Below, piece by piece: positions 15,640-59,663 of a stretch of 64,000 nt of DNA. The stretch is from positions 16,497,110-16,561,109 of the forward strand of contig NC_134030.1 in assembly GCF_964204645.1 (NCBI RefSeq), in the 5' to 3' direction. This DNA comes from Tubulanus polymorphus. Lineage: Eukaryota; Nemertea; Palaeonemertea; Tubulaniformes; Tubulanidae. The position numbers and the translations under genes were made by a program. Each line of letters opens with the position of its first letter. Positions within the stretch are counted from its first letter, which is position 1. The notes beneath the pieces were generated by a model, which was given only the letters and a program-made list of their open reading frames with translations, was not told the DNA's origin and did no database searches.

Positions 15640-17170
15640 CCAAACCTCTTTTCTTCTTATGATGAGGGCGGGCAAATTTTTAGCCCACTTGGGACTTTGG
15701 TCCCAGCGGGCTATCGCGTTCACTTTTCGTCCATCCTCCGTCCGTCCGTAGACGGAATTAAGTTATTTTGGGAAGTTTTGAAGACGCTTCAAGGTAATGT
15801 CTTGATATTTGGTTTATACATGTATCTACCCTAGACACATCTTCAGGCCAAAAACTGGCCCTGTCAGATTCAAGATGGCCTACTGGCAGCCATTGTTGTT
15901 CGCCAAAATCAGCACTTTTTACACATTTTCGAAGTTTTCAAGGGAAATTTTGAAGACGCTTTTATCAATTACCTTGATTGTTTGTATATATTTGGCCCAT
16001 CAACTTAAGAAAAATTGTGTTGATTGGACTAAAGATTGCCGTCCTATGACCTTTTTAGTGTCCAAAAATGTCAATTTTGGCCCGAATCCTGAGTCCTGTA
16101 GCTTCCTACTGGTTTGCCATTTGTCATTGCAATTTGTGATGGGTATTCTTTGGAAAGGGATGTTTTATACGTGAGACATGTATTTTTGATCAGCTAATTA
16201 TTGCGCAATTGGCAGCCATCTTGGCGTCATCAGTACTCATTCGTAGGTGGGAAAAGGTTTTTCCACATTATATTGATACCTAAGCATATTGTGTTCCATG
16301 TATTGGAAAGTTGCAGCTCATAACGTTTTCTATGATATTGGTGAGTTTCAAGGTCATTGCTTTTTGTATATGGCCACCAGGGGGCATTGAATACAATAAC
16401 TTAGTATTTCTATATTATAGTATTACAGTATTGTACTTACGCATATTTTGTTACCACAATCAATTGCAAAGTTGTAGCTCATGACATCGTCTATGATTGT
16501 CGTGAGTTTCAAGGACATAAGTTATTCAATATGGTCACCAGGGGGCGTTGAATGGTAGAAGAACTTGGTATTTTCTTATCAGATTGGTACCTAGGGATAT
16601 TTTGTTACCATGATCAATTGCAAAGTTGTAGTATATGACATGTTCTATGATTGTGGTGAGTTTCAAGGTCATTGGTTTTGCATATAGTCACCAGGGGGCT
16701 TTGAATAGTAGAATAACTTAGTATTTCCTTTTTAGATTGGTACTTAGGGCTATTTTGTTACCATGATCCATTGCAAAGTTGTAGTGCATGACATGTTCTA
16801 TGACTGTGGTGAGTTTCAAGGTCATTGGGTTTTGCATATGGTCACCAGGGGGCGTTGATTAATATGATGACTTAGTATTTCTATATTATATTTGTACCTA
16901 CGAATATTTTGTTACCACAATCAATTGCAAAGTTGTAGCTCATGTCATCGTTTATGATTGTGGTGAGTTTCAAAGACATAGGTTGTTCTATATGGTCACC
17001 AGGGGGCTTGAATAGTAGAACAACTGTGTATTAACTTATTAGATTGGTACCTTGGATATTTGGTTACCATGATCAATTGCAAAGTTGTAGTTCATGACAT
17101 GTTCTATGATTGTGGTGAGTGTCAAGGTCAGTGGGTTTTGCACATGGTCACCAGGGGGCGTTGGAGTAAA
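15640..17170 (+). mobile_element. Dispersed element with ~154-bp core tandem repeats, copy 1 (Helentron/pearl-like architecture)
   Basis: The element has a unique part (about 15640-16250), including an imperfect hairpin at 15680-15712 and a short CCGT-type microsatellite. Six head-to-tail units of about 154 bp follow. The same arrangement recurs at 29460-30325. Non-autonomous Helentron-type elements of bivalves (pearl family) have a similar layout of short flanks and a few ~150-160-bp core repeats. I infer membership of that class only from architecture. No Rep/helicase is encoded, and exact ends were not fixed. Confidence 0.55.
16371..17164 (+). promoter_or_regulatory. Six tandem CTCF-consensus-like boxes
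   Basis: Boxes of the form TGGYCACCAGGGGGCGTTGA start at 16371, 16532, 16685, 16839, 16993 and 17145, all in the same orientation, spaced 152-161 bp. The core CCACCAGGGGGC or TCACCAGGGGGC matches the conserved bilaterian CTCF recognition core. Because each lies in a tandem repeat unit, the boxes are copies of one ancestral box. Between boxes the units also share a GAGTTTCAAGGTCATTGG stretch. Whether the host CTCF binds here is not known. Confidence 0.5.
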
Positions 17171-29459: not shown

Positions 29460-30325
29460 TTTTGAAGGATTTTAAGCCGTCCGTTCGTTCATCCATCGGT
29501 AGATGGAATCCAGATATTTTGGGAAGTTTTAAAGACGCTCCAATGTAATTTCTATGGGTTACACGTGTATCTACCCTACACACGTCTTCAGGCCAAAAAC
29601 TAGCCCTGTCAGTATCAAGATGGCTGACTGGAAGCCATTGATGTTCACCAAAATCAGCACTTTACACATTTTAGAAGTTTTTGATAGAAATTTTGAAGAT
29701 GCTTTGATCAATTACCTTGAACTTTTATATGTATTTGATTCCCCCAAGGGCCCATCAGTATAATAAAAATTAGGTCGATCAGACTCAAGATGGTCGTCCT
29801 ATGACCTTTTTTGTACTAAAAAATGACAATTTTGGCCGAAATTCTGATTATTGTAGCTTCCTACTGGTTTGCTATTTGTCATTGCAATTTGTGGTAGCTA
29901 TTCTATGGAAATGGATCTTTAATACCGGAGACAGGTATTTTTGATCAGCCAATTATCACGCAATTGGTGACCATCTTGGTGTCAGTAATCAGTACTCATT
30001 CGTAGGTGGAAAAAAAGTTTTTCCACATCATATTTGATCCCTAAGCATATTTTGTTACCACAACCAATTGAAGAGTTGTAGCTCATACCATTTTCTATGA
30101 TTGTGGTGAGTTTCAAGGTCATTGGTGTTTGTACATGGCCACCAGGGGGCATCGAATAGTAGAATAACTTAGTATTTCCTTTTTATATTAGTACCTAAGC
30201 ATATTTTGTTACCATGGCCAATTTCAAAGTAGCTCATGAAATGTTCTATGATCGTGGTGAGTTTCAAGGTCATTGGGTTTTGCATACGGTCATCAGGGGG
30301 CGTTGAATAGTAGAATAACTGTAGT
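29460..30325 (+). mobile_element. Dispersed tandem-core element, copy 2
   Basis: This is collinear with 15720-16720: CCGT-rich start, TTTTGGGAAGTTTTRAAGACG, CTTCAGGCCAAAAACT and two core units. CTCF-like boxes lie at 30136-30155 (TGGCCACCAGGGGGCATCGA) and 30287-30306 (weaker, CATCAGGGGGC). The copy stops abruptly at a mariner-like terminus near 30332. The different number of core units (two versus six) fits copy-number change in such elements. Confidence 0.6.
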
Positions 30326-30331
30326 ACAGGA

Positions 30332-35039: not shown

Positions 35040-36535
35040 GACCCTGTTTGCTGGATAATGACGACATCCGAATCGTCTTTTGAACAGGAGATAAGTGAAA
35101 TGAATGCAAAATATACACCGATGAAAATATTACTCATTGGCCCTATCTGGCTCTAATATATTATGGTAATATACTCATTGGCCCTATCTGGCTCTGATAT
35201 ATTATGGTGTGAAGCAATGAAGATATCGAAAGTTGTTTAACCTTGGAGAGGTATATCGGTGACACTAGAAAGCCTATAGTATTCCTTGTGGGTTTTTACA
35301 TCATGTCCCAAGTGCCATGGCATCTCATGGCAATCATAATATTGAATGAGTAATCAAATAATTAGCTTCAATGAACTCTATTTTCGGGTACAGAAAAACA
35401 TGTGGTTCCCACATGCTGTCATCAGATCAAGAATTTATTGCTATGGTACAGCCAGGATAAAATATTCCTGTCAGCAACTACGATCTACGAAAATGACTAA
35501 CCAATGAATGACGGAATAACTTCAACTCGGATTTATTATTATTATTTAAGCACTAATTAACGAGTACCGGTTTGCTACAACACAAAAAACAACTACATTT
35601 AGCGGAAAATTGTGATAATTTGACAATTTACAATTCCAGCCATAGCGTAGTGCTGGCATACGTCGAATACGAGTGAGAGGTTAGAACTGTGCATTTACAG
35701 AAATGCCCAGAAAATGTATACAGATAGAAGTTCATGGTTTACCAAATCTATTTAATTCTACGTGAAGCGAAACGCGAAGAATTTGAGGAAAATACTGAAT
35801 ACAAATCCAACACTACTAATACACAACTCTTACAATACCGGTTAAGGAAACACAAATTCAACTTAATACACAGATTACAACATTCCAATTGCAACTAAAA
35901 CGCAATCATTTCAATGGCAACTCAAGGTTTGGTTGCGCATGTGTCCTGGGGCAATTAAAAGCCTTCATAGCATGTTAATTGACGGTGAGAGTCTCAGATT
36001 GAGTACACCCTAGATGCCACTGACTTGCACAAGACGTGCCTCCAAATACCAAAATTATATCTTGGCTGCACCATAATTAACAAACTAAAATTGGTCAATA
36101 AACAAAATTTTCAGTTTTTTGAGGCGACTAATATAATAGCATACATACCTGTGAAACAGTGGCAATGTACTTTCTGAGAGATGTCGAACATATCCTTTCT
36201 GGATGACTTATATCTGGACACGATGTCACGATTTCCTTCAGTTCTGAGCTTCCAGTAAATGGAGTTATCGCATTTGGCCGCTCAAACACATACATGTTTG
36301 CTTTCAGGATCTCCCTTTGACAGCATCTCCCTTTGCACTCAGCATATCTATAGACATGATTCTTCCATACGGCCGTCTTTGCAGGCCGTAACTGCAGGAA
36401 GTTGCGAATATTTTATCATACGACCATAGGCCTTTCTCCACAGGAGTCAACGGATGAAAGTTGACAAGATTCTACCATACGACCTTCTCTGCATGCGTCA
36501 ACAGATAGAAGGTTGAAAGATTCAATCATAAGATT
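34794..36535. repeat. Segmental duplicate block, left copy
   Basis: This block matches 49494-51290 in the same orientation with high identity. It comprises the middle of the mariner-like transposase, about 550 bp of non-coding sequence, and one recombinase-exon unit. The left copy is continuous with the transposase C-terminal part and with the tandem array. The right copy is joined to BEL gag. Confidence 0.85.
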
Positions 36536-38651
36536 TGTTGGATCCTCGGATTCGAATTGGGTGTGGGGGGCGTTGGCAATCCACGAACATAAGATAACGC
36601 GACTTGTAGTATAATGACGTAATGTATGTTTTCTCGATAATATTCAATACGACGACGACGACGAACCACTAAGACGGTTTAACACATTATGTTCCCAAGT
36701 CCCACGACCAGAGCTCAAAGAGAACGGTTTAACTGCCAGAAATGCTTTAATACAGCAATAGTCGCGCTTAAGTGCTTGGTGACCACCAAGGCGTGTATGG
36801 GCGGCCATTCCCGCCAAAAATCAGCTAAATTTGGCGGAAAATTGTGATAATTTGACAATTTACAATTCCAGCCATAGCGTAGTGCTGGCATACGTCGAAT
36901 ACGAGTGAGAGGTTAGAACTGTGCATTTACAGAAATGCCCAGAAAATGTATACAGATAGAAGTTCATGGTTTACCAAATCTATTTAATTCTACGTGAAGC
37001 GAAACGCGAAGAATTTGAGGAAAATACTGAATACAAATCCAACACTACTAATACACAACTCTTACAATACCGGTTAAGGAAACACAAATTCAACTTAATA
37101 CACAGATTACAACATTCCAATTGCAACTAAAACGCAATCATTTCAATGGCAACTCAAGGTTTGGTTGCGCATGTGTCCTGGGGCAATTAAGCGCATAATG
37201 TGCTTTTGAGATGCCTTCATAGCATGTTAATTGACGGTGAGAGTCTCAGATTGAGTACACCCTAGATGCCACTGACTTGCACAAGACGTGCCTCCAAATA
37301 CCAAAATTATATCTTGGCTGCACCATAATTAACAAACTAAAATTGGTCAATAAACAAAATTTTCAGTTTTTTGAGGCGACTAATATAATAGCATACATAC
37401 CTGTGAAACAGTGGCAATGTACTTTCTGAGAGATGTCGAACATATCCTTTCTGGATGACTTATATCTGGACACGATGTCACGATTTCCTTCAGTTCTGAG
37501 CTTCCAGTAAATGGAGTTATCGCATTTGGCCGCTCAAACACATACATGTTTGCTTTCAGGATCTCCCTTTGACAGCATCTCCCTTTGCACTCAGCATATC
37601 TATAGACATGATTCTTCCATACGGCCGTCTTTGCAGGCCGTAACTGCAGGAAGTTGAGAATATTTTATCATACGACCATAGGCCTTTCTCCACAGGAGTC
37701 AACGGATGAAAGTTGACAAGATTCTACCATACGACCTTCTCTGCATGCGTCAACAGATAGAAGGTTGAAAGATTCAATCATAAGATTTGTTGGATCCTCG
37801 GATTCGAATTGGGTGTGGGGGGCGTTGGCAATCCACGAACATAAGATAACGCGACTTGTAGTATAATGACGTAATGTATGTTTTCTCGATAATATTCAAT
37901 ACGACGACGACGACGAACCACTAAGACGGTTTAACACATTATGTTCCCAAGTCCCACGACCAGAGCTCAAAGAGAACGGTTTAACTGCCAGAAATGCTTT
38001 AATACAGCAATAGTCGCGCTTAAGTGCTTGGTGACCACCAAGGCGTGTATGGGCGGCCATTCCCGCCAAAAATCAGCTAAATTTAGCGGAAAATTGTGAT
38101 AATTTGACAATTTACAATTCCAGCCATAGCGTAGTGCTGGCATACGTCGAATACGAGTGAGAGGTTAGAACTGTGCATTTACAGAAATGCCCAGAAAATG
38201 TATACAGATAGAAGTTCATGGTTTACCAAATCTATTTAATTCTACGTGAAGCGAAACGCGAAGAATTTGAGGAAAATACTGAATACAAATCCAACACTAC
38301 TAATACACAACTCTTACAATACCGGTTAAGGAAACACAAATTCAACTTAATACACAGATTCCAACATTCCAATTGCAACTAAAACGCAATCATTTCAATG
38401 GCAACTCAAGGTTTGGTTGCGCATGTGTCCTGGGGCAATTAAACGCATAATGTGCTTTTGAGATGCCTTCATAGCATGTTAATTGACGGTGAGAGTCTCA
38501 GATTGAGTACACCCTAGATGCCACTGACTTGCACAAGACGTGCCTTCAAATACCAAAATTATATCTTGGCTGCACCATAATTAACAAACTAAAATTGGTC
38601 AATAAACAAAATTTTCAGTTTTTTGAGGCGACTAATATAATAGCATACATA

Positions 38652-38900
38652 CCTGTGAAACAGTGGCAATGTACTTTCTGAGAGATGTCGAACATATCCT
38701 TTCTGGATGACTTATATCTGGACACGATGTCACGATTTCCTTCAGTTCTGAGCTTCCAGTAAATGGAGTTATCGCATTTGGCCGCTCAAACACATACATG
38801 TTTGCTTTCAGGATCTCCCTTTGACAGCATCTCCCTTTGCACTCAGCATATCTATAGACATGATTCTTCCATACGGCCGTCTTTGCAGGCCGTAACTGCA
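38652..38900 (-). pseudogene. Recombinase-like exon (array copy 3; copies also near 36148-36400, 37400-37655, 50868-51120)
   Basis: The minus strand reads NAITPFTGSSELKEIVTSC, HPERICSTSLRKYIATVSQ and then a GTATGT donor at the exon edge. This is the same exon type as 20627-20759 (MRKYLATTSQ followed by GTAATG) of the finger/recombinase-like gene. The Arg in SLRKYIAT corresponds to the box II Arg region of tyrosine recombinases. The following MGH...Y exon is not in the unit, so the copies cannot make a full enzyme. Upstream codons are interrupted by frame changes. Confidence 0.6.
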
Positions 38901-39046
38901 GGAAGTTGAGAATATTTTATCATACGACCATAGGCCTTTCTCCACAGGAGTCAACGGATGAAAGTTGACAAGATTCTACCATACGACCTTCTCTGCATGC
39001 GTCAACAGATAGAAGGTTGAAAGATTCAATCATAAGATTTGTTGGA
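38894..39046 (-). repeat. 51-bp repeats in coding phase
   Basis: On the minus strand three degenerate 17-residue units follow each other, typified by MVESCQLSSVDSCGERP and ESFNLLSVDACREGRMV. Equivalent repeats lie in the other array copies. The block near 51120-51290 has one additional unit. The multiple-of-three period may reflect past coding function, though stops now follow. Confidence 0.55.
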
Positions 39047-41028: not shown

Positions 41029-41973
41029 TTATGTCGAGTCACATTCTAACAAAACGCACTTGTTTATCGGACGGTCGATTGTAGATTTCGCCGTTTTTAT
41101 GGTCACTCGTCTAACGATGTCATCTGTACCAGGCAAGATGGCAATTATTCGACCCAATGGCCATTCGCTACGATGAACACGATCATCGACGACCAGCACC
41201 AGATCGCCGATTTTAATGTTTCTTCGCTTCTTACACCATTTTTGTCTCTCTTGCAACATAGGCAAATATTCTCGAGCATATCGGATCCAGAACTGGTCGG
41301 CCAAATACTGCACGTGCCTCCAGCTTCGACGGCAGTATTGATCGGTTTTCTCGAACTTCCCTGGTGGCAGCCCAGGGCCGGATCTAAGGAGCAGAAGGTG
41401 GTTCGGAGTCAGTGCATGCAAATCGTTGGGATCATCGCTCACAGGAGTCAGTGGTCTTGAATTCATGATTGCTTCAGCCTCACAAATGAATGTACGCAGA
41501 CCTTCGTCGTTCAATATCTGTTGCCGTAGAGTTACGTTCAGGATTTTTCTTATAGAACGGATGCACCTTGCCCATACTCCTCCCCAATGGGATGCAGATG
41601 GAGGGTTGAAAATCCACTGAGTCCCCTTTTGCATGAGACATTCGTGTATCTTGGCCTGATTCCAACTTTCCACTGCATCACGCAACTCTCGTTCACCGCC
41701 TGTGAAGTTGGTGCCATTGTCGCTTCTTATTATCTCTGGTTGTCCTCTTCTTGCAATAAACCGTCGTTGAGCGTTGATAAACGAGGGGGTCGATAAATCA
41801 TCCGTGACCTCGATATGTACCGCCCTTATATTAAGACATGTGAAGACGCAACCATACCGTTTCACTATAACACGACCTCGTTTTGCGTTGTATGGACCAA
41901 ACAAATCGACGCCTACGTTAGTAAACGGCGGCTCGGATAAATTGGTACGATCCACCGGTAGGTCAGCCATCAT
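41029..41973 (-). pseudogene. BEL integrase core, catalytic Glu replaced
   Basis: A 314-codon open frame holds TNVGVDLFGPY (first catalytic Asp), IIRSDNGTNFTGGEREL (second Asp) and SASHWGGVWARCIRSIRK. In BEL/Pao integrases the last motif carries the catalytic Glu in GGVWER; here it is Ala. The C-terminal region with DLVLVVDDRVHRSEWPLGRI is well kept. Length and continuity suggest a young copy apart from the active-site loss. Stop is just before the long A/T-rich tail leading to the polypurine tract. Confidence 0.9.
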
Positions 41974-41999
41974 CTGGGACTCTGGTTTACCATGGTTCT

Positions 42000-42812
42000 T
42001 CTTGCAATCGACGCATCTTCCCAGTACATGTCGAACGGCTGAATTACCATTTATTTACCAATATTTCGTTCTCAGCATTGCGAGTGTAAACTGGCGACCA
42101 CCATGCGCCCAAATCAGATGATAATATTCGATGATCAACTTGGTAACGTGACAGTTCTTCGGTAGAATGATAGGGTATTTCCTAGCGTCGTCTATGGAAG
42201 ATTTCCTCAGCCGTCCACCGACTCGTAATATATATATAATATACCATCAACCATCATAGGATTCAGCTTTCGAATTCTACTCGACTTCTTAACATCACGT
42301 TTTCCACCTTCGGAACTGAATGAGACGACGTCGGGTAACCTCTCAACTTCGTCAGGAAAATGCCATTTTTGAATTATCTTCAGTATAGACTTCTCGGCAC
42401 TTCTCATCTCCAGTACACTAATTGGTTCTGAGGACTGTAATTTATTCACGTACCGCAGCATCCAGGTAACACATTTCGTCAGTCGATACCATGATGAACA
42501 TCTCTTAAACGCGGCGTGGAAACAATCGTCTTCTACGTCAGGTTGCAACCCGCTGTTTTTTACTCTGCCATTTTTCAGGACTAATGTAGTTTTCTTCACT
42601 TCAACGTCATCGTCTGGAACAGGGTGGACTTGAGATGACCGTGGCCATTCGGCATCGGGTTTCCTCAAAAATTCGGGACCATGTTTCCAAACTTCATTCT
42701 TCATGAATGCGTCGACTTTCTGACCACGTGATGCATCATCGGCTGGGTTAGATTTCCCATCTATGAATCTCCATTGTTCTGGTTCAATACGACTTCGATA
42801 TCGGTACATCAA
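42000..42812 (-). pseudogene. BEL RNase H C-terminus and integrase zinc domain
   Basis: The frame 42812-42207 contains KSNPADDASRG, which ends the RNase H module of BEL pol, and a long linker ending KLNPMMVDGILYI. In another frame at 42200-41980 the zinc-binding domain is legible, with a HLIWAHGG His pair and a CVDCKKNHG Cys pair, and one in-frame stop before the second pair. Confidence 0.8.
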
Positions 42813-44380
42813 GTTCTCTTCTCAGCATCTTGTCGTTTTTAACGGACAGCGTGGCTGCAGCTAAAACGAGGAATAGTCGTAGTCTTAATAGTCGGAGCTA
42901 CTCTAGCTTTTCTCATCAAAAATATGGGCTTTCTTCTGCGATCTCAAGGCGTATGTAGCTTACCGATGCGTAACCGACCTCGAAAGCATCCGTGAAGTGG
43001 TGTAGTTGAGCATCTATAACGTCTCCGAATCCCATTGGTTTCAAACATCTATCCATTGTATAACCGTACAACTTGGGCAGGGAGATCAACCATTCATTCC
43101 ATTGAACCAGTTTTTCTTCAGGTAAGTTATCGTCCCATCCCAATTTAAGCTTGACCAATGACTGCATCAGAATCTTTGAAACGAGTATTACTGGCGCTGC
43201 AAAACCAAGGGGGTCGTATAGTGCGCTTGTTACGGACAGAATACCTCTTCTCGTCGCCGGTTGATCACCGGGGGTCACACGGAACCCAAACGTATCTTTC
43301 TCCATATTCCATAATACGCCTAGTGCCCTGTCGACTGGTAACTCTTCAAAGCACATGTTCTTTACCGGAGGTGCCCTCTCTTCTTCCGGAATGGCCTCTA
43401 TCACCTTCTTTGAATTTGAAGCGAATTTGGTTATATGGAAACCACCCATCTGGAGTAGTTTTATGACGTTCAATGCCAATTCTTTGCAACATTCGTCGGT
43501 CTTCACGGATTTCAGCATGTCGTCGACATAGAAATTCTTCATTATAGTATCGGTAACCTGCGGGTCGAACGAACCTTCATTATCGGTAGCTGTTTTTCTC
43601 AATACAAAGTTACAGCAGCTAGGAGGTGCACTTTCATGTGATATTCATCAGCCGTTTTCCAAAATCATCAGTAGACCACCATAAGAACCTCAAGGCATCG
43701 CGTTGTTCAGGGATCACTCTCACCTGATGAAACATTGATTCTACATCAGCAACCAACACAATGGGTTCTTGCCTAAATCCCACCAATATACCAATTAAGG
43801 TGTTTGTCATATCGGGACCATGATACAACTGTTCGTTCAGCGATACACCATTATACGTAGCTGAGCAATCGAAGACGACTCTAAGTTTCTTCTTCTGCGG
43901 GTGATACACTGGGTGGTGCGGCAAATACAATAGCAAACCATCGGTGTTGACTTCTTCAGGCGGTACCATTTCAGCAAAGTCGCAGACTAAAAGATCTTCG
44001 ATAAATTTTCTATATCCAGTTCGACGCTCTACATTCTCGCGAAATCCTGGCATCAATGGTTTCAGTCTTGATTCGGCCATCTTACGATTATTAGGCGGAC
44101 ACGGAGGTGACACCTTAAATGGAAGTGCCATTTCATAATGGCCGCCTTTCAAACTCACGGTACCTTCCATTATAGCCAACACCTTCTTATCATTTACCCA
44201 AATCATCTGCTGATCATCTCCGACGTCCCCAAATTCTCGGTTGAAGTAATACAGCAGTCGTTTGTCCAATGAATCATCAATATTTACCGCATTACTGCTA
44301 CGGATGGGTCTTCTACCATTCTTACCAAGGGGCCCCGTTGACGGCCCATCCGAACATTGTTCGGACAGCATATGGACCAT
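42813..44380 (-). pseudogene. BEL reverse transcriptase and start of RNase H
   Basis: The first frame (44380-43634) has LPHHPVYHPQKKKLRVVFDC, then EQLYHGPDMTNTLIGILVGF and ADVESMFHQVRV, with the first catalytic Asp of the palm. A short deletion/frameshift around 43610-43640 removes part of the segment before the next motif. The second frame (43602-42916) has MKNFYVDDML, the intact YVDD catalytic box, and GGFHITKFASNSKKV. It ends with a connection domain and the start of RNase H (LHHFTDAFEVGYASVSY). BEL RT signature spacing is otherwise kept. Confidence 0.9.
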
Positions 44381-44446
44381 TTCTCACGGCTGGCTTCACC
44401 TACATAGGTTCCATTGCTCTACAGTTATCGTTACCAATTAACAGCT

Positions 44447-45066
44447 CTACGTTAACATCATATTTGGTATGAAGACGCCATCGAAATGAGACCATTTCTT
44501 AACTTCGCTTTGAGACAGAATATCTTCTCTGGTAACAGGAATATCGGGCGTCGAGAAGACCATAGGCAATTCCAATTTCTCCATCTCATCAACATCGCTT
44601 ATCAACAACTTAGTTACCATGGTTCCTGCGTTGTCGGAATGACCCATTGTCAAGAAATAGTGGTTTTCCGAGTGTTGGCGTTCAGCTTATTCATCAACTG
44701 TGTAGTACAAAACGTCGCTGTAGAACCAGTGTCCAAAAGAGCATATACCAATTGAAGTTCACCATTTTCAAATGCTCTTACCAATACTGGAACGATCGGC
44801 ATACTTATCTTCTCCTTTTGACTAGTCTTGGTTATAGAACCATTTTTCACCTTTTCGGGGTTATGCAATGACGAGTGATGTGCGCCATTACAGATGTTGC
44901 ATTTACTTCGAGGTTTCCAACATTCTCTAGACCGATGCCTAGGGAGGAAGCAATTAAAGCATAGGGCTTTATCTCTCACGAATTTCACCTTCTCTTCATA
45001 GGTAAATCTACTGAAACCACTACAATTTACCAGCAAGTGCTCGTTACTGCAATGTGGACATCTCAA
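44447..45066 (-). pseudogene. BEL nucleocapsid zinc knuckles and aspartic protease
   Basis: Zinc-binding Cys/His groups CPHCSNEHLLVNC, CFNCFLPRHRSREC and CNICNGAHHSSLH come first. A VYALLDTGSTATF motif follows, the DTGS active site of a retropepsin-like protease. After a frameshift near 44650 the protease-to-RT linker (LISDVDEMEKLELPMVF, TREDILSQSEVKKWSHF) continues to 44447. The knuckles are intact; the ORF is broken. Confidence 0.88.
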
Positions 45067-45187
45067 CGGTTTCTTAGTCGCTGGTGGTAGATTTACGGTC
45101 GTTTCTGACGATGGACCAACTATTTCTTCCGATTGGCGCGTGATGAATGTCTTCCCCTTTTTATCTGCATATTTGTGATCCTTGATA

Positions 45188-45754
45188 TCAGAGATATCGC
45201 CGAAAACGGTGTGTTGCTATTCTGGCTTCTTTCTCTACAAACTCCGCAATATCGCCAAAGTTGACATCCCGTTGCTGCTTTTCATTAATCGTATCAGCTA
45301 TGCTGCGCCAACGTTTCCTCAGGTCGTAGGGCAGGCGATTCACTACCTTTCGTAGAGAATCTGGGTTTTCGATCTTATTAAGATAGCCAACTGCCTTTAA
45401 CGCATTTCCACAACTGGTCAACTTTATGGAAAACTTCTTCAAACCATTCCTATCTTCCGATCTAAAGGCTGGGCCCTTGGTAATTTCGTCGACGTATGCT
45501 GTAGCAATTCGATAGTTCTGACCATAACGCTTCTTCGGTGCATCTTTAGCTTCTAAGTATGCCGAATCATCACTTCGAGTTAAATAACTTCTTACCAACT
45601 CTTTCACTTCGCCAGACGTGTACTGAGCAAGATAATACATCCTCGACGTATTACTTGACGTTCTTGTTTCGATCAGCTGTTCGAATGCCTTAATAAACGA
45701 TATATACTGCAATGCGTTACCACCAAATATTTGAAAGGCTGAATCCAAGAACAT
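45188..45754 (-). pseudogene. BEL gag, conserved central domain (DUF1759-like)
   Basis: A 188-codon open frame contains QIFGGNALQYISFIKAFEQL, RMYYLAQYTSGEVKELVRS, KKRYGQNYRIATAYVDEITK and SLRKVVNRLPYDLRKRW, the conserved retrotransposon gag block of BEL/Pao. Its first ~40 codons are duplicated in inverted orientation at 48640-48759. A frameshift near 45190 separates it from the zinc-knuckle part. Confidence 0.88.
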
Positions 45755-46179
45755 GTCTATCGCACTTTTGAGCCCAAATGTCTACTTTTACTTAGTAGCC
45801 ACTTGAGAACAATAAGCAATTAACGATATCAGCTACTTTTCCAGTAGTATACATTTCAAAACAGTCACTCTGAAATAGTATTCCTTTCAATTCGGTTGCT
45901 TTTCTATAGTGGCTGTTTCGAAGAGTCTACTATTGAAAAGTGACCATTTTGAAACATCTGGTTTCGATAGTGCACACTAGCAGTAGAGGTGACTGTAAAA
46001 CCACCCGCCTGTTAACAGTGACTGTGTGATAGTAACTCCTACCATAGCAGCTACTCTCAAAACACATCGTTTCTAAAAGTCAACTATTGAAAAGTGACCA
46101 TTTTGAGATCGCTTGCTAGATTCCCTGTTATAAATACATGGTAGCAACATATGCTTCAAATTTGCAGTGATACGTGACA

Positions 46180-51661: not shown

Positions 51662-52073
51662 GTAGTCGTTTATTGACTTTAAGATTCTATGAGAACAAAG
51701 CTTTCTCAGACCATAGTAACTAGGCTTGGGAGTCATAAATGGTACAAAGAGAAACATATATTTGAAAAGCTATATTTTTGCAGATCAAATCTATGTCTCC
51801 CATGACATAGTTATTCCTAAAATGAAACTGCCAAATCAAGAAAGTACGTTTTGTAAAAATGAATAATATTGGTTTGCTATACATAGATTTGATCTGCATA
51901 AATATAGCTTTTCAAATATTAGATTTACATTTTTGAAAAATAACATTTTAAAAATCATTTCCTATCTAAGATTATTTTCATTTTTCTCTTTGTACCATTT
52001 ATGACTGCCAAGCCTAGTTAATCTGGTCTGAGAAAGCATTGTTCTCATAGTATCTTAAAGTCAACAAACTACC
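51662..52073. mobile_element. 412-bp palindromic MITE
   Basis: Left arm 51662-51795 and right arm 51885-52073 are inverted copies with few mismatches. They share TTGACTTTAAGAT, ACTAGGCTTGGSAGTCATAA and AAAAGCTATATTT. The element abuts the Gypsy B integrase fragment. It could fold into a long hairpin. No TSD was convincingly identified. Confidence 0.75.
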
Positions 52074-52414
52074 TCCAAATTAGCTTTCAGATCACTAATA
52101 TGCTTGGCTACTTGTTTCGAAAGACTGTCATCCGGAGTCAGTGATGTGTCGATGGAAAGAGGAATTTCTTTACCAAAAAGAATGTGAAACGGAGGGATTC
52201 CTGTGGATTCGGACGGTGATGACCTGATAGCCATCATTACGCTCGGGAGTATGTCAGCCCAATTCGACTGGTCTTGGTTAATGTAGCATCTGAATATCTG
52301 GCCTAATGTCCTATTTTGCCTCTCTACAGTAGCATTGGTCTGGGGATGATAGCTTGATGTGGTAGAGCGAGTTACCTGAAAGAGTTCGCATATGGAAGAA
52401 ACCAGAGAATTCAA
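52061..52414 (-). pseudogene. Gypsy B integrase, C-terminal half
   Basis: The open frame reads TTSSYHPQTNATVERQNRTL, carrying the catalytic Glu of the DDE triad, then WADILPSVMMAIRSS and GIPPFHILFGKEIPL. Just upstream, in another frame, a SDRDRLF segment keeps the second Asp. The zinc domain and first Asp region (52440-52780) are unreadable. Confidence 0.85.
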
Positions 52415-52779
52415 AAATAATCGATCCCGATCAGATACTAAGGATCGAGGCGCGCCGTATCTTGAGAAGATGTCATTATAGAGAACTTAGACCAACTCGG
52501 AAGCTTCCTGCGACTATAATGCAAAACCCTCACACCATCTAGAACAACTATCCACGAGTAAGAAAAAATTGAAAGAGTGGAAAATCTTTGTATTTCTGAA
52601 AATCTTTATAGAGAAGACCATCGTGAATGTGGAAATTCTCAGCCTGAAAATTGTTGGCCAAATGTTTATCCACAGGCAGTCGACGGGTTTCCAAGAAATC
52701 AATCATGGGGGAAACATTCATCACAGTCTCGTTGCGCAGTTTCGAGATCTGCGTCTTGAACAGGTAATACTGTGGTCAA

Positions 52780-53342
52780 GGCACTTGGCTCATCACACGC
52801 GTAAGTGAATTCCACTTCCAACGTCTTTGCAGGCGAAGTCGCTGCAACGTCGAAAGGAGTGGGAAAATCCTCATGATCATTGTCATCCGTAGTTTCGGGG
52901 TAAACTCGTCGAGAAACACCATCAGCATTTGTTTTTTTCGTACCTGGACGATGTACAATTTTAAGATCGTAGCCCTGTAATTAAGCTGCCTAACGGCCTA
53001 CGCGACTATTTGTGTCCTTAACCTTATGAATATATGACAGGGACTAATGATCAGTGTAGATTGTGAAATGTTTAGCAGCTAAATATTCCCTATAAGCGTC
53101 GATACCTACAACAATAGCAAAACATTCTTTATCTCAAGTATCCCATCGACGTTGTGACTGAGATAGGGATTTACCACCATAACAGATTTCTCGTGACCCT
53201 CGTTATCAGTCTGCGCTAAAATGTACGAAATTGCCGAATCGGAGGCATCGGTACAAAGAAGGAATTCTTTTTTATAATCCGGATACGATAAAATGGGGGG
53301 AGAAATCAAATGTTGTTCAAGGTGTTGTTGGTGTCGGTCCAA
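52780..53342 (-). pseudogene. Gypsy B RNase H
   Basis: The frame 53342-53106 has SYPDYKKEFLLCTDASDSAI and YILAQTDNEGHE, the RNase H start. Further down, in other frames near 52960-52900, the closing motif HRPGTKNKCADGVSRR is legible. Intervening frames contain stops. Confidence 0.8.
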
Positions 53343-54494
53343 ACAAATTCCTGGTTTTTCTCAAGGAGACATGTTTTGTTTCGAAGCAATATTAGCACAA
53401 GATTTGACGAAACGCCTGTAAAATCCAGAAACTCCAAGGAAAGCACGAAGATCCCGCTGATTTTTTGGAATAGGAAAGTTTTTGATGACTTCACCTTCGC
53501 AGGGTCCGCCTCGACTCCACTTTTTGAAAAAATATAACCAAGATAGGGAACCTTGTCCATAGAAAATTTACACTTTGATGGTTTCAGTGTCATGTTAGCG
53601 ATGCGCAGTCTGTCAAAAACCATCCTCAACTGCCAAAAAATGGTCCTCGAATGATTTAGAATAAATGAGAATATCATCAATGTACACCAAACAGAATAGC
53701 CAATTGTAACCTCTTAAAACCTCATTCGTGGTCATTTGGAAACTAACAGGACTGTTTTTCAAACCGAAGGGAAGGCGTTTGAACATGTATGCACCGAATT
53801 GGGTAACAAACGTGCTTTTATGTGCTGTGTGAGGGTCCAAACCAATTTGCCAAAAGCAGAGAGTCATATCGAGGGTTGAGAAATACGCTGCACGAGCCTC
53901 TCCGATGGAATCAATTATATCCGTAATTTTTGGTAGCGGAAAAGCCGTGGGTTTGGTCAGTCTATTCAGGGCACGGTAGTCCACTGCAAAGCGGTATTCG
54001 CCTGATTTCTTTTTTACCATAATAACCGGTGATTGAAATGGTGAGTTAGATTGGGTAATGATATCAGCCTTTAACATTTCATCGACCTGTCTATCTTGCT
54101 CAACCCGAATGTGAGGGGGTTGACGATAAGGTCTCTGGGCACAAGGCGGTTTGTCGCCGGTGTCTATAGTATGGGTATACATGTTGGTAGAACCCAGTTC
54201 AGACAGGTTCGTTGAAAACCTATATCTATATTCTGTCAATAGCGTATGGAGAGCTTGCCGTTGGTCGTCAGTCAAGTCCACGTCTGACAAATCGAAATTT
54301 ATGGGATCAGGATTAGAACCTGGTCCATCAGATTCCGGGGCAAACTTTGCTATGTTCCCGATATCGTGTTCTGGCAAAGTAGCGCCGGCCACTGACGTGT
54401 GGCCTATGTCATCTGAAAGGCTGACTATCGGGGTGGACTCATCTAAATGTGATAAATTTGCCAGTACCATACCTCTGGGTATATAAGCCGACAA
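53306..54494 (-). pseudogene. Gypsy B reverse transcriptase
   Basis: A 293-codon frame from 54494 contains PYRQPPHIRVEQDRQVDEML, SPFQSPVIMVKKKSGEYRFA, VDYRALNRLTKPTAFPLPKI, YFSTLDMTLCFWQIGL, KRLPFGLKNSPVSFQM and FCLVYIDDILIYS, with the catalytic YIDD intact. A frameshift near 53615-53680 leads to a second frame with LKPSKCKFSMDKVPYLGYIF, the RT/RNase H junction. Codons before 54340 are the acidic linker. Only one frame break separates these parts. Confidence 0.92.
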
Positions 54495-55057
54495 TCCCTC
54501 TACAATTTTCTACGTGCCCTTCAGACGGTGTCAAAAACAATTTTTATGTAAAATGAAAAGTAATCCATTCTCAAATGATTAATTCAGGTACCCGGGTGAT
54601 TCATATTTAATTTATTTCTGTCCTTTTTCTAAAGGAAAGTGCCCCTTTTCATGGTGAAAGTGCCCTTTTTCTTGAAATAGATACAAAAATCAAAAATGCT
54701 CGCCACGTCTTGTTTGGATAGGGAACTAGGGATAAGGGTTTTATAGGTTTCATGTCGTCACCTTATAAACATTTTGGCCTATTTTTTTGGTTTCAAGAAA
54801 ATTAAACGGGGACTCCACCTTGAGATTTTTTGTTCGTTTATTGAAAGTTAAACAAATCATTAATTCAATTATGAGTTTCTTTTGATTATCGTATATTGAC
54901 AAGTACATGAAATAAATGATTTTGTAATCTCGCGTGGGTGACCCCATCTTTTTGCACATAGCGATACAGCGTGTAAGCGCAGTTTGCGCAGCTTCAATCT
55001 GGGTTAAGAAGACACCACACGATTTGCGCGATCTATCAGTTGCTGTGGTTCACAATA
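54495..55057. other. Spacer upstream of the P2X7C-like gene
   Basis: Nothing coding is supported. The last ~100 bp contain a GC-richer stretch (AGCGCAGTTTGCGCAGC near 54976) that could belong to a promoter or an element terminus, but no consensus element was identified. Confidence 0.35.
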
Positions 55058-59005: not shown

Positions 59006-59611
59006 GACTGTTAAAATGATAAATTGTTTGACAGTTGAAATGATAAATTGTTTGACAGTTGAAATGATAAATTGTTTGACAGTTGAAATGATAAGACAGT
59101 TGAAATGATAAATTGTTTGACAGTTGAAATGATAAATTGTTTGACAGTTGAAATGATAAATTGTTTGACTGTTGAAATGATAAATTGTTTGACAGTTAAA
59201 ATGATAAATTGTTTGACAGTTGAAATGATAAATTGTTTGACAGTTGAAATGATAAGACAGCTGAAATTATAAATTGTTTGACTGTTGAAATGTTAAATTG
59301 TTTGACAGTTGAAATGATAAATTGTTTGACAGTTAAAATGATAAATTGTTTGACAGTTGAAATGATAAATTGTTTGACAGTTGAAATGATAAATTGTTTG
59401 ACAGTTGAAATGATAAATTGTTTGACAGTTGAAATGTTAAATTGTTTGACAGTTGAAATGATAAATTGTTTGACAGTTGAAATGATAAATTGTTTGACAG
59501 TTGAAATGATAAATTGTTTGACAGTTGAAATGATAAATTGTTTGACAGTTGAAATGTTAAATTGTTCGACAGTTTTAATGTTAAATTATTTGGCAGTTGA
59601 AATGTTAAATT
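59006..59611. repeat. 24-bp minisatellite, ~25 copies
   Basis: Units of GTTGAAATGATAAATTGTTT plus GACA are repeated head to tail, with a few shortened units (lacking AATTGTTT) near 59090 and 59254. Because 24 is a multiple of three, one frame stays open as an octapeptide repeat, which I regard as artefact. It lies at or beyond the 3-prime side of the spliced gene at 59664-60901. Confidence 0.95.
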
Positions 59612-59663
59612 GAATTTGTGATTTCTTCCATGAACGCTTTTTAAGCCTAAAATAATCGCTTAC

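Follow-up and report, generated by a model that had tools for sequence, protein, structure and literature searches.

The window, by which we mean the whole 64-kb stretch of Tubulanus polymorphus DNA that was analysed, holds two copies of a HINE, a Helentron-type rolling-circle transposon that is non-autonomous; the element agrees with this kind in most of the features tested. Eight short boxes resembling the binding site of CTCF lie within these two copies. The relevant features are listed here by window position, with p values from the human CTCF matrix described below.

15676..17163, + strand: HINE copy 1, with an intact 5' end and six central units and without a 3' end (from similarity to other copies)
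15681..15713, + strand: 5' subterminal inverted repeat (subTIR) and hairpin, TAGCCCACTTGGGACTTTGGTCCCAGCGGGCTA (matches the opening 24 bases of the family 5' pattern with a single mismatch)
15727..15755, + strand: GTCY-type block of short repeats (CGTCC/CCGT), with limits judged by eye (pattern match at 15735 with 1 mismatch)
16260..17163, + strand: tandem array with a period of 154 bp, 5.9 copies and 79% matches (TRF)
16371..16390, + strand: CTCF-like box 1, TGGCCACCAGGGGGCATTGA (p 2.8e-9)
16532..16551, + strand: CTCF-like box 2 (p 7.5e-8)
16685..16704, + strand: CTCF-like box 3, imperfect in its first bases, TAGT (p 6.6e-6)
16839..16858, + strand: CTCF-like box 4 (p 7.5e-8)
16993..17012, + strand: CTCF-like box 5, with 1 base missing 3' of the core (p 6.1e-6)
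17145..17164, + strand: CTCF-like box 6 (p 7.5e-8)
29478..30326, + strand: HINE copy 2, with the GTCY block, the non-repeat left part and two units; start approximate (parallel to copy 1 by eye)
30136..30155, + strand: CTCF-like box 7, TGGCCACCAGGGGGCATCGA (p 1.9e-9, the best in the window)
30287..30306, + strand: CTCF-like box 8, CGGTCATCAGGGGGCGTTGA, imperfect in its first bases, CGGTCATC (p 3.3e-6)

Elsewhere in the window, 16-bp and 51-bp tandem repeats recur every 1,252 bp (at 36304, 37556 and 38808), such that positions 36304-39034 apparently represent a triplicated 1,252-bp unit. A 24-bp satellite of about 26 copies with 90% matches occupies 59006-59612. Retroelement-like ORFs (integrase, reverse transcriptase and gag-like) lie on the - strand at 41029-45781 and 52061-54509, and by eye these are BEL/Pao-like and gypsy-like. 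A search of the window with Rfam yielded no RNA family at gathering score, and this class of explanation was set aside.

The first-pass annotation of this DNA had proposed eight CTCF-like boxes that share one orientation and are spaced at about 154 bp. All eight were found where it had placed them, with 0-3 mismatches to its consensus and all on the + strand, and the successive steps of the window array (161, 153, 154, 154 and 152 bp) agree with the spacing that it had given. Chance matching is ruled out as the origin of the box set, given that 100 shuffled controls produced zero boxes. The annotation had also claimed a close match to the CTCF consensus and suggested a matrix scan, for which we used the human CTCF matrix MA0139.1, with hand-entered counts, at a cut-off of p<1e-5. 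All eight boxes pass this cut-off. Of the 13 matches in the whole window (versus 1.3 expected), five are sites other than the boxes, and the five best matrix sites in the window are all boxes. The boxes of the unit consensuses reach p 8.7e-10 (TGGCCACCAGGGGGCGTTG) and p 7.5e-8 (TGGTCACC...) on the hand-entered human matrix. Two features count against the CTCF reading, specifically an unfavourable T at matrix position 17 of the box and an unfavourable T at position 4 in three of the four unit consensuses.

The annotation had further located the boxes within the core repeats of an element dispersed in the genome; these are indeed the ~154-bp central repeats of the HINE family. When copy 1 was compared with the loci of 11 other copies, identity was 86-90% across 1.3-1.5 kb, and the match to them ends directly 3' of the sixth box. 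The 3' end motif is absent from the window at up to 6 mismatches, and no ORF of at least 130 aa overlaps 15676-17163. The second copy with two boxes, also noted previously, belongs to the same family as copy 1. Its GTCY match lies at 29478 and its tandem array spans 30040-30326, and neither the 5' hairpin and end motif nor the 3' end motif was found at this locus.

Complete copies (five measured) are 1,396-1,440 bp long and carry 154-bp arrays. The order of parts is a 5' subTIR with hairpin, the GTCY block, the box-ending units, a 3' subTIR and a CTAGTT end. The family 5' end reads TTTTTAGCCCACTTGGGACTTTAGTCCCAGCGGGCTA with small variants, as judged by comparing the window copy with 11 others, and the 3' end reads CCCAAGTGGGCATGGTGTCCCTGGACCCCTAGTT in the five complete copies, one of which is altered at two places. 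HINEs are expected to have a subTIR pair of 12-15 bp, and in all five copies this pair comprises GCCCACTTGGGA, directly following the 5' run of T, and TCCCAAGTGGGC, at 23 nt from the 3' terminus. The 5' subTIR also has a complementary inverted repeat, with TAGCCC...GGGAC pairing with GTCCC...GGGCTA. The stretch in locus L009 that is homologous to the 5' hairpin of copy 1 has a DNA fold of -9.9 kcal/mol (z -4.5), and a 3' palindrome candidate, GGTGTCCCTGGACCCC, permits imperfect pairing with a fold z of 0.13, no better than that of shuffles. The element ends are TTTTTAG (TTATTAG in L005) and CTAGTT, and no flank repeat is seen by eye in the five complete copies. We had considered the box itself as the 3' terminus of the element, where the first alignments stopped, but complete copies run about 80 nt past the core to CTAGTT. 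Likewise, what seemed to be a second, unrelated repeat with the box at 1,127-bp spacing consists, in the four loci read (L151-L154), of tandem duplicates of the same HINE. A degraded relative (L155) is roughly 68-75% similar and retains one perfect box alongside a damaged one; because the box itself led to this locus, it is uninformative on conservation.

Elements with much of this anatomy have been described elsewhere. According to excerpts of PMC7492417, Cg_HINE of Crassostrea gigas has a 5' subTIR with a complementary inverted repeat, a microsatellite, central tandem repeats that are mostly 140-180 bp in short arrays, a right flank of about 60 bp with a 3' subTIR and palindrome, and insertion at oligo-T sites with no target-site duplication. 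This likeness is one of anatomy and, unlike here, CTCF goes unmentioned in PMC7492417 (0 occurrences). The same excerpts class the bivalve Pearl elements, with up to six central repeats of about 160 bp, as HINEs, a likeness by description. The DINE-1/INE-1 elements and mite HINEs, as partly presented in PMC4067079, have subterminal inverted repeats, a 3' palindrome, TT or T-rich insertion and optional central tandem repeats, and are mobilised by Helentrons. In the mite HINEs treated in that portion of PMC4067079, the 3' subTIR lies 38-60 bp from the end, versus 23 nt here, and CTCF is again unmentioned in the paper (0 occurrences). Genes of autonomous Helentrons are present in the T. polymorphus genome, as exemplified by an ORF at L130 with Helitron_like_N, PIF1 and Exo_endo_phos and an adjoining ORF with OTU. 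Rep matches number 58 genome-wide, and in four of these loci (L016, L017, L129 and L130), searched with limited flanks, no autonomous partner bearing the ends of the element was found.

The copies of this element in the T. polymorphus genome number well over a thousand. The genome-wide count that had been suggested gave 1,529 5' ends and 2,464 3' ends, each within 3 mismatches, and 3,748 exact 16-mer boxes, with reversed controls of 0, 0 and 0. The perfect 11-bp core of the box, CACCAGGGGGC, occurs 5,874 times versus 8 for the reversed pattern, and 3,748 of these 5,874 cores carry the GTTGA extension of the element. On contig C1, the exact 5' ends among the matches listed number 67, all at 8.07-28.84 Mb, and 63 of them lie below 20.6 Mb of the 32 Mb, a distribution that may reflect selection, insertion bias or chromatin. 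For the array sample we took 80 exact 5' ends from the 100 that were listed, out of 1,529, which biases the sample to young copies. In these 80 copies, 217 of 233 boxes reach p<1e-5 on the hand-entered human matrix, and matches outside the boxes of the same arrays amount to 2 in 71,280 bases versus 1.4 expected. Boxes passing the cut-off number two or more in 62 arrays and none in 12 (the box is absent from the stretch read in 12 of the 80), and in 49 of the 80 arrays the one-way CTCF-like sites number three or four. Of the 39 arrays with four units, all four cores are perfect in 18, three in 14, two in six and a single one in the remaining array.

The same units hold a further motif, TCAAGGTCA, which we take to be an extended half-site of NR5A/ERR-type nuclear receptors. 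It occurs at window positions 16348, 16663, 16816, 17122, 30113 and 30264, all six inside 154-bp units, on the same strand as the box and upstream of it. In the 80 sampled arrays there are 78 same-strand and 0 opposite-strand occurrences.

A critical question is whether the box is better conserved than the unit as a whole, since the first-pass annotation had regarded equal conservation as telling against CTCF recognition. The answer is divided. Over all 386 unit matches, of which 234 passed the coverage filter for divergence bins, a sample likewise weighted to young copies, the core is the most conserved 11-mer of the unit, with 97.4% identity versus a mean of 89.8%. Non-CpG private mutations, however, are about as frequent in the core (0.98%) as elsewhere (1.10%, p 0.80). 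The four unit consensuses agree at 108 of 154 columns, and their longest unbroken identical block is the box core plus GTTGAATA, a 19-bp stretch with a permutation p of 0.034. An alignment of the 39 of 80 sampled copies with a 3' end at the expected distance gives core mismatches of 1.8% versus 4.1% elsewhere, and gaps that are more frequent in the core (1.5% versus 0.2%). Core mismatches total 30 over the four units, whereas the other offsets that were compared average 71 and go no lower than 30. Furthermore, non-CpG variants common to two or more copies reach 0.59% in the core versus 2.82% elsewhere. The box was probably kept, under moderate constraint, while the source copies multiplied, since it outranks every other block in conservation across the unit types.

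The inserted copies give no significant sign of host selection on the box. Private mutations at G/C sites (0.90% in the core versus 1.50% elsewhere, p 0.11) and the number of shared-variant sites (4 of 40 in the core versus 98 of 522 elsewhere, Fisher p 0.20) do not differ significantly, and constraint after insertion was rejected on these grounds. Private mutations are thus not significantly depleted in the box, and host preservation of the copies is accordingly unsupported.

These data can also be explained if the box is conserved for element replication or for the copying of tandem units, for example as a Rep, helicase or junction signal, with the likeness to CTCF being coincidental or inconsequential. 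We consider this account unlikely, but it has several points in its favour. Each unit terminates in the box, and 66 nt separate the last box from the end motif CATGGTGTCCC in most sampled arrays that have this motif. A second stretch of the unit, CTATGATTGTG, approaches the box in conservation and occurs in perfect form 4,516 times genome-wide (control 79), such that the 5,874 perfect cores, a number that counts non-element ones, are only somewhat more numerous; the two blocks occur together 2,325 times. The lack of significant host-level constraint on private mutations fits this explanation as well. However, the likeness to CTCF covers most of the 19-bp matrix, on which the unit consensuses score p about 1e-9 to 1e-7, and the same core is independently enriched in the host genome. 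Moreover, some oyster HINEs with similar ends have unrelated central repeats (excerpts of PMC7492417), which argues that the central repeats are no fixed replication signal.

Enrichment of the core CACCAGGGGGC above chance outside the element is seen over the initial 6.13 Mb of contig C1, a region free of exact 5' ends among the matches listed. This region has 17 perfect cores among the matches listed versus 0.18 expected from the reversed control, 16 of them in the first 1.41 Mb and three of the 17 belonging to one small cluster. By eye, none of the 17 has unit-like flanks, and the GTTGA extension is found at 0 of 17. At the eight matrix positions that were not part of the search, these cores have a log-odds sum of -34.4 versus -101.4 for random local sequence (sd 17.6, p 5e-5), a score that is above random yet negative. 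The signal comes from position 16 (R in 15 of 17) and position 18 (T in 13 of 17), and positions 1-3 are unlike the hand-entered human matrix. A related pattern, CCASYAGRTGGCR, occurs 1,702 times genome-wide versus 25 for the control. The human matrix is a poor fit to the flanks of 20 of its sites (p 0.97). Four of the 20 (L131, L135, L137 and L144) have a common extension, CCACYAGATGGCGAGYGTGATTT, that could be a longer host motif or a short repeat. This misfit and the shared longer extension make the CCASYAGRTGGCR class weaker evidence, and it may include sites of another factor.

The host genome encodes a CTCF with 11 fingers; two exons of its gene, on contig C3, match human CTCF at 62% (ZF1-4) and 52% (ZF5-9), with a third exon holding the last two fingers. 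A PDB search identified the query peptide as CTCF. Fingers ZF3-7 of CTCF contact the core of the site, and an ortholog with altered specificity had been named in advance as a finding that would undermine the proposal. The base-reading residues (-1, 2, 3 and 6) are as in human at 4 of 4 positions in each of ZF3, ZF4 and ZF5, so in these fingers the protein is unaltered at the base-reading positions, but the corresponding residues of ZF7 (2 of 4, R and D) and ZF6 (1 of 4, Q) are only partly kept. A bilaterian origin of CTCF is given in the excerpted text of PMC10658181.

Given that C2H2 genes are numerous in this genome, with 205 matches to the CTCF query, it is appropriate to ask whether the box and the matching non-element sites are instead read by another host zinc-finger or YY1-like protein. 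The CCASYAGRTGGCR sites often contain AGATGGCG, which we take to be a YY1-type core as well, and the longer AGYGTGATTT extension common to four of the 20 sites is unexplained by CTCF. We nevertheless judge this alternative improbable. The flanks of the non-element cores fit CTCF at the same positions 16 and 18 noted above, the core CACCAGGGGGC is presumably not a YY1 site, and CTCF fingers 3-5 are unchanged.

On balance, the sequence evidence makes it fairly likely that this is a HINE whose central ~154-bp repeats each end in sequence recognisable by host CTCF. If so, host CTCF would bind the unmethylated boxes, each insertion would lay down often three or four one-way CTCF-like sites, and the array might create a nucleosome-poor, cohesin-stalling or insulating patch where chromatin permits. 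The spacing of the boxes had been likened to a nucleosome plus a short linker. This remark is doubtful, in that CTCF has a footprint of several tens of bases and 154 bp less this footprint should leave less than a full nucleosome between neighbours; full occupancy would therefore give a nucleosome-poor patch. Methylation and silencing are common among transposable element copies and would keep CTCF from binding. A GCG to GCA change, which removes the CpG, barely lowers the matrix score (24.6 for window box 1 versus 25.7 for the consensus), and therefore deamination would be expected to keep the site and remove its methylation sensitivity.

A precedent is the mouse B2 SINE, a dispersed element that spreads CTCF motifs, and by analogy our element may work like a CTCF-spreading transposon. 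B2 differs in that it is a retrotransposon with a single-site layout and proven CTCF occupancy, versus the predicted sites described here. To our knowledge, the spread of CTCF sites by transposons is known mainly from mammals. HINEs and CTCF-carrying transposons are both already known as kinds, and we found no report of CTCF sites in a Helentron or HINE, or of a tandem CTCF array, in the titles and abstracts of the matches listed from the open-access literature.

A rival account is that the host has recruited these element-borne CTCF sites as boundaries, with individual insertions now kept by selection. One-way arrays would suit boundaries, again by analogy with rodent B2, and near-consensus sites number in the thousands. 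However, the box shows no significant shortage of private mutations relative to other positions, and the 67 5' ends on C1 among the matches listed (8.07-28.84 Mb) leave the first 1.41 Mb, where 16 non-element cores lie, without any. We therefore hold recruitment of this kind to be very improbable, slightly more so than reading by another zinc-finger protein. A bolder proposal, which we offer tentatively and think unlikely, is that CTCF recognition is part of the body plan of this rolling-circle transposon. Such an element would spread one-way arrays, supply most of the perfect CACCAGGGGGC cores and be able to redraw chromatin domains where it inserts. CTCF binding would aid the element itself, through openness or through guidance to accessible replicating DNA, hence the box as the best-kept part of each unit.

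If CTCF binds, a single invertebrate family with thousands of tandem oriented sites would permit a direct test, within one species, of direction-dependent loop stalling outside vertebrates, a matter left open by the echinoderm data in the excerpts of PMC13317027. There, the boundaries of two echinoderms are enriched for CTCF motifs, less so than in zebrafish, and show no orientation pattern, and thus site direction may not matter outside vertebrates. Squid boundaries are enriched for a CTCF-like motif, as stated in part of PMC9023564. If true, our interpretation would likewise point to a function for the central repeats in one family of HINEs.

Some additional arrangements of the core occur outside the element. 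At L100 (C1:83926-84206), three non-element cores lie about 35 bp apart, with TTCATCCGGTTT in two spacers, and form a separate small cluster. In addition, nine CACCAGGGGGCGCT cores in one orientation extend over about 430 kb of contig C3 (G000:C3:22903049-23334860). Four of these nine loci were compared, of which three (L156-L158) have flanks that are 96-99% alike and one (L159) is unrelated, and the series may be a tandem gene cluster in which each unit has its own CTCF-like site.
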